Assembly (NCBI GenBank): GCA_002951815.1
Contig: CP019454.1
Span: 124,001-188,000 of the forward strand
DNA length: 64,000 bases
Source: Sulfobacillus thermotolerans
Lineage (GTDB): Bacteria; Bacillota; Sulfobacillia; Sulfobacillales; Sulfobacillaceae
Reading direction: 5' to 3'
Within the stretch, counting starts at the first letter, position 1. Each line of letters opens with the position of its first letter. Positions 53,803-61,363 of this stretch are shown piece by piece. Below the pieces are notes generated by a model. The model worked only from the letters and a program-made list of their open reading frames with translations, searched no databases and had not been told where the DNA came from. A program made the position numbers and the translations under genes.

Positions 53803-54801
53803 ATGGCGCAGAGAGAACCAGTCTCTGGGCTACCAGTCGATCGAGAAAAATTAAAGACCATGTATTATTACATGGTATTAAGTAGAAGACTTGACGAGCG
53901 CATGTGGATTCTTAACCGTCAAGGGAAAGCGCCGTTTGTCATCTCCTGTCAAGGGCAGGAAGGCGCACAAGCCGGGGTGGTTATGGCCTTGGATTCTCAG
54001 GTCGACTGGATTGCGCCTTATTACCGCGACCTGGCTGTCGTATTGGCATTTGGTATGACGCCACGGGAAGTGATGCTGGGGTTTTTGGGCAAGGCGGATG
54101 ACCCGAGCTCTGGCGGCCGGCAAATGCCTGCGCATTATGGACATCGTGCACGGCGGATTTTTACGGGATCGTCGCCGGTGGCCACGCAGGTGACACAGGC
54201 GGCGGGGCTGGCATGGGCGTTCAAGCTGCGTCATGAGGCCGCAGTGGCGGTGGCCTTTTTAGGAGAAGGTTCCACCAACCAAGGGGAGTTTCACGAGGCC
54301 TTAAACTTTGCGGCGGTGCAGCGCGTGCCGCTCATTGTAGTGGTCGAGAACAATGGCTACGCTATTTCGGTGCCGCAGAACCATCAAATGGCGATTCATA
54401 ATGTTGCAGACCGGGCTGCGGGGTACGGAATTGTGGGCGTTGTCGTACAGGGCTCTGACCCGCTTGCGGTGTATGAGGCGGCGCATGCGGCGCGAGAAAG
54501 AGCCTTGGCTGGCGGGGGACCCACGTTGATTGAGGCCAAAACGTATCGCTATACCGCACACTCGAGCGATGATGATGACCGCAGTTATCGTAGTCGGGAG
54601 GAATTGTTGCGGGAAAAGGCGGATGATCCGGTTGTGGTCTTCCGAGAATCTCTCATGCGCCTAAACGTATGGGACGAGCGGCAAGAGGAACGGTTGCAAC
54701 AAGAAGTGCGGGCGGTGGTCGATGATGCGACAGAGTATGCATTAAACGCGGCGATGCCAGACCCCTCGACCTTAATGGACCACGTGTATGAGAAGGATTG
54801 A
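53803..54801 (+). CDS. 2-oxoacid dehydrogenase E1 alpha subunit, first copy
   Basis: 332 aa, thiamine-diphosphate enzyme. The TPP motif is GEGSTNQGEFHEALNFAAV...ENNGYAISVP; the phosphorylation-loop region is RYTAHSSDDDDRSYRSREE. The SSDDD loop is typical of branched-chain or acetoin-type E1. It decarboxylates a 2-oxoacid with the E1 beta encoded two genes downstream. It lies 36 bp after lpdA. Confidence 0.94.
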   Translation: MAQREPVSGLPVDREKLKTMYYYMVLSRRLDERMWILNRQGKAPFVISCQGQEGAQAGVVMALDSQVDWIAPYYRDLAVVLAFGMTPREVMLGFLGKADDPSSGGRQMPAHYGHRARRIFTGSSPVATQVTQAAGLAWAFKLRHEAAVAVAFLGEGSTNQGEFHEALNFAAVQRVPLIVVVENNGYAISVPQNHQMAIHNVADRAAGYGIVGVVVQGSDPLAVYEAAHAARERALAGGGPTLIEAKTYRYTAHSSDDDDRSYRSREELLREKADDPVVVFRESLMRLNVWDERQEERLQQEVRAVVDDATEYALNAAMPDPSTLMDHVYEKD

Positions 54802-54815
54802 TGAAAGGAGTGGGG

Positions 54816-55796
54816 ACATTGGCATCTTTAAATATGACCCCGGAGTTGCTCAAGGAGATGTATTACACCATGGCTCTATCGCGGGCCTTGGATGACCGGA
54901 TGTGGATTCTGAACCGGCAAGGGCGAGCACCTGTGGTGTATTCTGCTAACGGCCATGAGGCTGTCCAGGTGGGAGCTGCGATGGCTTTGAACCGGGGCGA
55001 AGATTGGATTGTGCCTTATTACCGGGATTTAGCGATGGTATTGGCTTATGGCATGACCCCACGTGAGGTGATGTTACACCTTTTAGGACGTGCGGACGAC
55101 CCGAACTCGGGCGGCCGTCAGATGCCAGCACATTGGGGCCTTAAGCGACGGCACATTTTAACGACTGGGTCTGTGGTGGCAACCCAGGATGTGCACGCAG
55201 CAGGTCTGGCGTTGGCATCGAAGGTGCTGAAAGATGGCCGGGTCTCTATGGCCTCTTTTGGGGAAGGGTCCACGAGTCAAGGAGAATTTCATGAGGCGCT
55301 GAATTTTGCTGCGGTGCATAAGCTCCCTGTCATTTTTCTCAACGAGAACAACGGATATGCTATTTCCGTTCCTGCACGCAAGCAAATGGCCATTATGGAC
55401 GTTGCCGCGCGGGCCCAAGGCTATGGGATGCCGGGCGTCATTGTGGACGGCAATGACCCGGTTAAGGTCTACGAAGTGACGCGAGAGGCGGCAGACAGAG
55501 CACGCCGCGGAGAAGGGCCGACCTTAATCGAAGCGAAAACCTACCGATTTGTGCCGCATTCCAGCGACGATGACGACCGGGCTTACCGGAGTCGTGAGGA
55601 AGTCGCGGAGTGGAAAAAGCGGGACCCGGTGATTACGTTTGAAAAGCGTCTCCTCGACGAGAAGGTCATGACGGAAGAAGAATTAAAGGCATTCCAGCAG
55701 CGGATCAAGGATGAAGTGAACGACGCCACAGAGTATGCAGAAAAAGCGCCGTTGCCTGATCCCGCGACGCTTTGGCAGCATGTCTACGCTGATTAA
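54816..55796 (+). CDS. 2-oxoacid dehydrogenase E1 alpha subunit, second copy
   Basis: 326 aa, a clear paralogue of the preceding gene with the same motifs (GEGSTSQGEFHEALNFAAV, ENNGYAISVP, FVPHSSDDDDRAYRSREE). A TTG start is chosen because GAAAGGAGTGGGGACA lies directly before it; the ATG 18 bp upstream would sit on the ribosome site. Both copies look active. The C-terminal helix LRLNVWDERQ of copy 1 and LLDEKVMTEE of copy 2 differ most. Why two alpha subunits are encoded is unclear. Confidence 0.94.
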   Translation, partial: TLASLNMTPELLKEMYYTMALSRALDDRMWILNRQGRAPVVYSANGHEAVQVGAAMALNRGEDWIVPYYRDLAMVLAYGMTPREVMLHLLGRADDPNSGGRQMPAHWGLKRRHILTTGSVVATQDVHAAGLALASKVLKDGRVSMASFGEGSTSQGEFHEALNFAAVHKLPVIFLNENNGYAISVPARKQMAIMDVAARAQGYGMPGVIVDGNDPVKVYEVTREAADRARRGEGPTLIEAKTYRFVPHSSDDDDRAYRSREEVAEWKKRDPVITFEKRLLDEKVMTEEELKAFQQRIKDEVNDATEYAEKAPLPDPATLWQHVYAD

Positions 55797-60030: not shown

Positions 60031-60354
60031 ATGATGCATGAGACCGAACGCTACCCGGATTGGGCTCGCAGCATGAAGCATGCGCAAGAAGATATTGGCT
60101 TGTTAATGGCGCATTTGATGGAATGGAAGGCAATTTTCGATCAGGAACTGCCGACTGATACGGCAGCGGGCGCTTTAGACCGGGCCGTAACCGCGTTAGA
60201 GCTGGCGACATCCGAAATGATGGTGGTGCTGTCCGCGTTGGACGGAGACGATATGCCGTATCAAGAGACGGAAGGGGATGCATTCTCCTCCATGCGCCGC
60301 AACGCTCCCGATTTATACGACGACCCGACGGAAGAGGAGTTAGACGAGGATTAA
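60031..60354 (+). CDS. Hypothetical acidic protein, 107 aa
   Basis: Not recognised. It is predicted mostly helical, with a very acidic C-terminal tail (YDDPTEEELDED). No signal or membrane segment. It converges on the tRNA gene. Conserved small acidic proteins of this kind are common beside lipoate genes in acidophilic Firmicutes only as a general impression; no function is assigned. Confidence 0.65.
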   Translation: MMHETERYPDWARSMKHAQEDIGLLMAHLMEWKAIFDQELPTDTAAGALDRAVTALELATSEMMVVLSALDGDDMPYQETEGDAFSSMRRNAPDLYDDPTEEELDED

Positions 60355-60367
60355 CCTTTGGGCGAGA

Positions 60368-60458
60368 TGGAGACGGTCATTGGGAATCGAACCCAACCAA
60401 TCCCTTCGGGATTGCCGATCGGTTTGCAGCCGATGGGGAACCCAGTTCCATGACCGTC
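60368..60458 (-). tRNA. tRNA-Cys(GCA) with a tRNA-Sec-like body
   Basis: 91 nt including encoded CCA. The acceptor stem is 8 bp (GACGGTCA/TGACCGTC), joined directly to a 5-bp T stem (TTGGG/CCCAA) with loop TTCGATT: the 8/5 plan of bacterial tRNA-Sec. The D arm is short (GGAAC/GTTCC, tiny loop). The anticodon arm is ATCGG-CTGCAAA-CCGAT, giving GCA (Cys). The long variable arm is a perfect 7-bp stem, CAATCCC-GAA-GGGATTG. The discriminator is U73. GCA plus U73 are cysteinyl-tRNA synthetase identity elements. It lies 17 bp after a glutaredoxin-like gene on the same strand. Confidence 0.9.
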
Positions 60459-60475
60459 AAATTTGTTTGGACGGG

Positions 60476-60721
60476 CTATGACGGTACAAGGTAACGGCGC
60501 AAGTCCCGTGTCTGAAATCCCACGACAATATGTTCGGTGCCGTCTTGACTACGAATGATGGTCGTCGGGGTGGCGTCCGAGCCCAGCGCTATGACTTCAT
60601 CAATCCATGCGGGATTTTTTCGGATATCGCGTTCCTCAAATGCGATTTGATGATGAAGAAGCCAAGCCTTCTCTTGTTGACAGGAATGGCATCCTGGTTG
60701 TGTATAGACAATCACTTCCAT
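60476..60721 (-). CDS. Glutaredoxin/NrdH-like redox protein
   Basis: 81 aa thioredoxin-fold protein with redox motif CHSC in YTQPGCHSCQQEKAWL, cis-Pro in DATPTTII, and C-terminal VVGFQTRDLRRYL. It would reduce disulfides in the cytoplasm. The ATG at 60721 follows AAGGGAGGCG. The tRNA-Cys-like gene begins right after it on the same strand, so both may be on one transcript. Confidence 0.88.
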   Translation of the reverse strand: MEVIVYTQPGCHSCQQEKAWLLHHQIAFEERDIRKNPAWIDEVIALGSDATPTTIIRSQDGTEHIVVGFQTRDLRRYLVPS

Positions 60722-60937
60722 ACCCGCGCCTCCCTTCGTGCGGGTATTATTATACCCATTTGCTAGACCATAATCTAGGATTGGGAATGACAAGATAAAA
60801 GCTTCATACCCAATGGGGTATGTATTCAACCGCGCCTACGAAAAAATGGTTCTAAAGGATTAGGGGGTAAGGGGCTTTGGTATCATTGACGCGCTTCCCA
60901 TTTATGGATATAAGTAAATAAGAATGAGGTGTTAAAG

Positions 60938-61363
60938 ATGTATGAACCCTTAGCAGAAGTCTACCGTGCCCTCGGGGACGGATATCGGTTGCGGATTTTG
61001 GCGATGTTGAAGGTGCGCGAAACCTGTGTGTGCGAAATGGTGGCGTTGTTGCCCATTACGCAATCAGCGGTGTCGCAGCATCTGAGAAAGCTGAAACAAG
61101 CGGGATTGGTGCAGGAAAGACGGCAAAAATACTGGATATACTATCGCCTTAATGAGGCGATGGCCGCTCCCGTCGCGAGTCTGGTGCGGGCCTTACCGGA
61201 AGAACCGAGCGATGTGCAGTGGCTAACGACGCATGCCGTGGGATGGCCTTGTAGTGTCGCAGAAAATGGGGCTCGCAAGACGAACGATGCCGCGGACGAG
61301 GAGGGAGAAGCTGTGTCAGGGCACCATGGGCACAGCGAACGCGATGCAGGATTATACCGTTGA
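60938..61363 (+). CDS. ArsR/SmtB-family transcriptional regulator
   Basis: 141 aa winged helix with LRILAMLKVRETCVCEMVAL (the CxC site of arsenic- or metal-sensing ArsR proteins) and recognition helix ITQSAVSQHLRKLKQAGLV. The His-rich C-terminal end (SGHHGHSER) may add metal ligands. ATG at 60938 follows GAGGTGTTAAAG. Overlaps the OsmC gene downstream, so it probably controls it. Confidence 0.92.
   Translation: MYEPLAEVYRALGDGYRLRILAMLKVRETCVCEMVALLPITQSAVSQHLRKLKQAGLVQERRQKYWIYYRLNEAMAAPVASLVRALPEEPSDVQWLTTHAVGWPCSVAENGARKTNDAADEEGEAVSGHHGHSERDAGLYR

Follow-up and report, generated by a model that had tools for sequence, protein, structure and literature searches.

A short gene in a Sulfobacillus genome raises the question of which amino acid is delivered, and at which codons, by a tRNA that joins the body of a selenocysteine tRNA to the anticodon and discriminator of a cysteine tRNA. 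The gene lies in the window, i.e. the whole 64-kb stretch of DNA analysed here, which spans positions 124001-188000 of a single-contig genome of 3,317,203 bases. It is 91 nt long with the CCA encoded, and occupies window positions 60368-60458 on the minus strand, with its 5' end at 60458. ARAGORN calls a tRNA-Cys(GCA) at this position, the sole tRNA across the window, and the Rfam model for tRNA-Sec (RF01852) matches it above its gathering cut-off of 47 (49.7 bits, E 3.7e-8). The features are the following.

60368-60458, minus strand: selC*-type tRNA-Cys(GCA) with an 8/5 acceptor branch (layout, ARAGORN, RF01852, fold)
60451-60458, minus strand: 5' strand of the 8-bp acceptor stem, GACGGTCA, paired to 60372-60379
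60437-60449, minus strand: D arm, a tRNA-Sec-like long D stem of 5 bp (GGAAC/GTTCC) with a 3-nt loop (TGG)
60418-60434, minus strand: anticodon arm ATCGG-CTGCAAA-CCGAT, 5-bp stem
60425-60427, minus strand: anticodon GCA (layout, ARAGORN)
60398-60414, minus strand: long variable arm of 7 bp (CAATCCC/GGGATTG) with a GAA loop (layout, fold)
60380-60396, minus strand: T arm, a perfect 5-bp stem (TTGGG/CCCAA) free of a bulge, loop TTCGATT
60372-60379, minus strand: 3' strand of the 8-bp acceptor stem, TGACCGTC, paired to 60451-60458
60371, minus strand: discriminator U73, a CysRS identity base
60476-60721, minus strand: glutaredoxin-family gene, 17 nt upstream of the tRNA (Pfam PF00462)

Read from the 5' end, the layout of the first half is GACGGTCA, T, GGAAC-TGG-GTTCC, CC, ATCGG-CTGCAAA-CCGAT, CGG, and that of the second half CAATCCC-GAA-GGGATTG, G, TTGGG-TTCGATT-CCCAA, TGACCGTC, T73, CCA. 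All eight acceptor pairs are Watson-Crick, and the fold of -39.8 kcal/mol (z = -3.04) was equalled by none of 200 shuffles. The original prediction had described a Sec-type body with the CysRS identity elements GCA and U73, which is borne out by the layout and by the match to the tRNA-Sec covariance model that it had pointed to. It had also described an 8-bp acceptor, a 5-bp T stem, a 7-bp variable arm and complete pairing of all stems at 60368-60458; this anatomy is right, because layout, ARAGORN, the tRNA-Sec model match and the fold agree. The D arm is indeed present, but it is not the "minimal" arm that had been proposed. No standard 7/5 fold was found that scores better. Besides RF01852, no Rfam family matches the locus at E <= 1, and it is absent from the 51 genome matches of RF00005, the general tRNA model. 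A scan of the window for CTGCAAA-N26-36-GGTTCRANTCC-N10-11-TCCA gave one occurrence, against zero expected.

The rest of the genome shows that Sec decoding is in place in this host. A true tRNA-Sec with anticodon UCA and G73 is present, as is selA (544 bits). One selB gene exceeds the cut-off (354 bits) and lies far from the tRNA; likewise a single cysS exceeds its cut-off, and no cysS* duplication was found in the genome. The host selD carries an in-frame UGA within SKSG-UGA-GCKLGPEDL (SKSG-U-GCK), followed shortly 3' by GTTAGGTCC-GGA-GGACCTAAC, a 9-bp SECIS-like hairpin. An ordinary tRNA-Cys(GCA) of the form GGCGACG...CGTCGCC-U-CCA is encoded as well, so that the genome check suggested by the original prediction, for a normal tRNA-Cys and for selA, selB, selC and selD, found all of them. 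Since the genome has both a UCA tRNA-Sec and a normal tRNA-Cys, the tRNA in the window is not the host's Sec tRNA, nor is it the sole Cys tRNA. Two simple explanations thereby fall away, namely that the gene is the only tRNA-Sec of the host with its anticodon altered, and that it stands in for a missing tRNA-Cys.

That Sec-like tRNAs with altered anticodons had been surveyed in bacteria before was correctly stated in the original prediction (PMC7609411). According to the account in PMC7609411, selC* tRNA-Cys is an established class of tRNAs with GCA (or UCA), U73 and a tRNA-Sec-like body (Mukai et al. 2017), reported from Firmicutes, Thermodesulfobacteria, Nitrospirae and Proteobacteria. The Sulfobacillus tRNA shares with this class the 8-bp acceptor, the long variable arm, U73 and GCA, and likewise coexists with a true selC, the Sec pathway and a normal tRNA-Cys. 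Unlike the textbook members, it has a perfect 5-bp T stem that lacks the 51a bulge; this bulge, with a modified 8/4 branch, is frequent in selC* tRNA-Cys and reported to be dispensable for charging. Unlike some members, its locus has no adjacent selB* or cysS*, an arrangement reported for delta-proteobacterial subgroups only and not for the whole class. It also differs in that the eighth acceptor pair is A.G in most sister genera, and in its host, an acidophile from a genus cultivated on ferrous iron in air (PMC7409299) and not an anaerobe. Canonical tRNA-Sec resembles it in the 8/5 branch, the long D stem, the long variable arm and in passing the Rfam tRNA-Sec cut-off, but has UCA and G73 instead of GCA and U73, and the host has its own selC. 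From canonical 7/5 tRNA-Cys it is set apart by the 8/5 branch, the 7-bp variable arm and the absence of the locus from the RF00005 matches. As judged from these core features, the tRNA is best placed with the selC* tRNA-Cys, in an 8/5 subtype. Superwobble through a 4-bp anticodon stem was considered and rejected: the stem has 5 bp here, and PMC13092985 is silent on tRNA-Sec-like tRNAs.

The closest functional precedent is the tRNA-Cys(GCA) of Desulfotomaculum nigrificans, which, as summarized in PMC11415595, is carried by SelB instead of EF-Tu and decodes the UGA codons for Sec as Cys (Vargas-Rodriguez et al. 2018). The Sulfobacillus tRNA resembles it in the GCA anticodon, the tRNA-Sec-like fold and a host with a single SelB; it differs in that the tRNAs of D. 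nigrificans-related Desulfotomaculia have a bulged 5-bp T stem, and in that function has been tested for the D. nigrificans tRNA. By this analogy we propose, with a probability of roughly three in four, that the Sulfobacillus gene encodes a selC*-type accessory tRNA-Cys, which would be charged by CysRS and delivered by SelB to insert Cys for Sec at SECIS-marked UGA codons when selenium or Sec-tRNA is short. The single ordinary CysRS of the host would recognize U73 and GCA and charge the tRNA with Cys, while the 13-layer acceptor branch, together with the long D and variable arms, would direct the Cys-tRNA to the single SelB and away from EF-Tu. SelB would then bring Cys to the marked UGA codons by near-cognate GCA.UGA reading, which requires a third-position mismatch because the GCA anticodon fits UGU and UGC. 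In this way selenoproteins such as SelD could still be made, with Cys replacing Sec, under scarcity of selenium or Sec-tRNA. Charging, SelB delivery and UGA decoding in Sulfobacillus are what we infer from D. nigrificans; selenium scarcity as the physiological reason is a published hypothesis, in which synthesis of selenoproteins under such scarcity was posited for the CysRS*/SelC* pair (PMC9437257). The original prediction had left open which residue is inserted and at which codons. For the class, this question is largely settled by the published work: Cys, via SelB, at Sec UGA.

The anticodon itself suggests a different target. Being cognate to UGC and UGU, it would allow SelB to take the Cys-tRNA, or a Sec-tRNA made on the same molecule, to Cys codons that are marked by a SECIS-like hairpin. 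A precedent exists in the GCA tRNA-Sec of Aeromonas salmonicida, which according to PMC11415595 serves Sec insertion at targeted Cys codons (Mukai et al. 2016). The two tRNAs are alike in having a tRNA-Sec body with GCA; unlike the Sulfobacillus tRNA, in which U73 marks Cys, that of A. salmonicida is a Sec tRNA. The discriminator is informative here: the host tRNA-Sec and all four host tRNA-Ser have G73, whereas the selC*-type tRNA has U73, which makes charging by SerRS and the SelA route unlikely. As a UCA tRNA-Sec is present in the host besides, we regard delivery to marked Cys codons as improbable.

Cys-for-Sec insertion at UGA by an accessory tRNA can be viewed against the record of the gene in its relatives. 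Close homologues were sought among 60 relatives by DNA match and covariance model, and not by an anticodon pattern. Further intact copies are present in 14 genomes, all inside the order, and GCA, U73 and the long arm are kept in 15 of the 15 intact copies. The anticodon loop, U73 and the encoded CCA are conserved in nearly all of them, and acceptor pairs 1-7 remain near GACGGTC/GACCGTC throughout. The four Sulfobacillus copies have A-U as pair 8; most other genera show A.G at this layer, and one genome (G035) T.C. The expectation that the 8/5 pairing would persist in relatives therefore stands for Sulfobacillus, with its Watson-Crick eighth pair, but not for most sister genera. In the canonical tRNA-Sec of the same taxonomic class (e.g. 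L001:1501-1596), the eighth acceptor pair is almost always a G.A mismatch. Because the eighth layer is A.G in the sister genera and G.A in this tRNA-Sec, what the selC*-type tRNA and tRNA-Sec both seem to preserve is the number of 13 layers and not strict pairing over 8 bp. In one genome (G029) the usual tRNA-Sec is joined by a divergent second tRNA-Sec(UCA), the 8/5 branch of which pairs completely (L313, G029:C73:140575-140669).

In some selB-bearing genomes of the order the tRNA copy is absent or broken. The decay forms comprise shortened anticodon loops, broken arms and deletion of the anticodon arm. In G007 (L057) the anticodon arm is deleted while the T arm and the acceptor can still be read, and G031 contains two damaged copies (L055, L064). 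Since some lineages have no copy or decayed copies only, the selC*-type tRNA gene is dispensable in the order.

A wider set of homologues was collected from genome_contigs with a pattern that required the anticodon loop of tRNA-Cys, a long variable region, a T loop and TCCA. More than 100 stretches matched, and at least 87 loci with a tRNA-Sec-like body remained after removal of false matches. As the pattern demanded GCA and U73, these letters were excluded as evidence of conservation in this set. Of the 87 loci listed, 50 have a perfect 8/5 branch; in 23 others the branch is 8/5 but the T stem is bulged, and the last 14 show an 8/4 branch with a bulge. Because 50 of the 87 are perfect 8/5, the 51a bulge is treated here as a mark of a subtype and not as class-defining. 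The hosts of the listed loci are Nitrospirota, Desulfotomaculia and relatives, deltaproteobacteria, Actinomycetota (among the matches listed: Geothermincola, Solincola and Thermoleophilia), Chloroflexota and Sulfobacillia. When an 8/5 model was applied to 42 diverse homologues, 95.3% of the pair cells could pair, and the covariation score was 0.62 versus 0.21 for shuffled alignments; controls with slid alignments were also exceeded. Covariation, covariance models and homologues together rule out chance hairpins as the source of the fold.

Some tRNAs found in these searches stand apart. About 40 viral contigs of IMG/VR (L184, L189, L193, L205 and others) carry tRNAs that combine GCA and U73 with a 7/5 body and whose variable region is long and class II-like; they form a group separate from selC*. 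With nearly all IMG/VR matches having such 7/5 bodies, outside the selC* class, a phage origin was ruled out. Another acceptor (GGCTGGT or GGCCGGT) is found in long-arm tRNAs with GCA and U73 from Desulfopila, UASB270 and a Planctomycetaceae MAG (L155, L181, L118), which possibly form a separate subtype. One Nitrospira MAG (L069, L077) contains two selC*-selB pairs in addition to a UCA tRNA-Sec, and the T stem is bulged in one of the two tRNAs only.

A link with selenium use emerges from the genomes that carry the tRNA. In a phylum sample of 398 genomes there were 22 carriers, and a control pattern had none. All 22 carriers possess selB, versus 263 of the 398 genomes overall (hypergeometric P = 8e-5, with kinship ignored), and the Desulfotomaculia-like carriers have one SelB each. 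A UCA tRNA-Sec is also found in 11 of the 12 carrier genomes checked from other lineages. Among the loci listed from outside the Sulfobacillia, 35 of 79 have selB, YedE or YedF within 5 kb, a number that becomes 42 of 79 when LysR and 2-hydroxyglutaryl-CoA-dehydratase-type genes within 5 kb are included. Representative neighbours were confirmed as SelB, YedE, YedF and the selenium-metabolism LysR by passing TIGR00475, TIGR04112, TIGR03527 and NF040786 (the selenium-associated LysR). Neighbours of these types had already been linked to selenium use by comparative genomics (PMC5322559).

Within 5 kb of the 20 Sulfobacillia loci no selenium-type neighbours were found; in the Sulfobacillus order no selB* or cysS* lies beside the tRNA, and the window holds no selenium-gene operon around it. 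The neighbours in the window are the glutaredoxin gene, lipB, lipA, a small unknown ORF, ArsR and OsmC. The order glutaredoxin gene to tRNA, on the same strand, recurs in three other Sulfobacillus genomes (tblastn: L225, L226, L227), with a spacing of 17 to about 210 nt across the four loci. As two of the four loci have a terminator-like hairpin (by eye) between the two genes, this arrangement is read as conserved order and not as a functional operon. A promoter scan of 60200-61000 gave zero sigma-70-like sites, which is uninformative. Elsewhere in the window, a tandem diverged pair of pyruvate dehydrogenase E1-alpha-like genes (53803-55796) precedes E1-beta-like, E2-like, lipA and lipB genes.

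These distributions also bear on whether the tRNA might merely be an oddly shaped minor tRNA-Cys isoacceptor that works through EF-Tu at all UGU and UGC codons. With GCA, U73 and an encoded CCA it should be accepted by CysRS, but the host has a normal tRNA-Cys(GCA), every carrier of the tRNA in the phylum sample also has selB (22/22), the tRNA is dispensable and decaying in sister lineages, and its D. nigrificans relative does not use EF-Tu by the account in PMC11415595; an isoacceptor role is thus very unlikely. A regulatory, non-translational RNA, such as a sponge for SelB or CysRS that senses Cys or selenium status, would also agree with the linkage seen in other phyla, where the selenium-associated LysR, YedE and YedF lie close by, but is highly improbable given that almost every intact copy in the order retains the anticodon loop, U73 and encoded CCA, which points to charging and decoding, and that the related D. 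nigrificans tRNA is described as decoding (PMC11415595).

The selC* tRNA-Cys class, with one member tested for function, is already known. In the reviews consulted, through which the reports of Mukai (2016, 2017) and Vargas-Rodriguez (2018) are cited here, Sulfobacillus was not found named as a selC* host. Added here are a Sulfobacillia branch with decayed copies, a purine-purine eighth layer at a position shared with tRNA-Sec, and a cross-phylum linkage of selC* to the selenium regulon. More tentatively, and with some doubt on our side, selC* could serve bacteria that decode Sec as a general fallback supplying Cys for Sec. In several phyla it would belong to the selenium regulon (LysR_Se, YedE, YedF, SelB), in Sulfobacillus it would operate with a single SelB and a single CysRS, and each lineage could keep or lose it according to selenium supply.

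If Cys is indeed inserted for Sec by the accessory tRNA, one UGA codon would mean Sec or Cys in the same cell, decided by which tRNA SelB carries. Sulfobacillus would then extend Cys-for-Sec recoding to an acidophile, in which one SelB and one CysRS would suffice. The linkage to genes of selenium transport and regulation in several phyla makes the proposed role in selenium scarcity directly testable.
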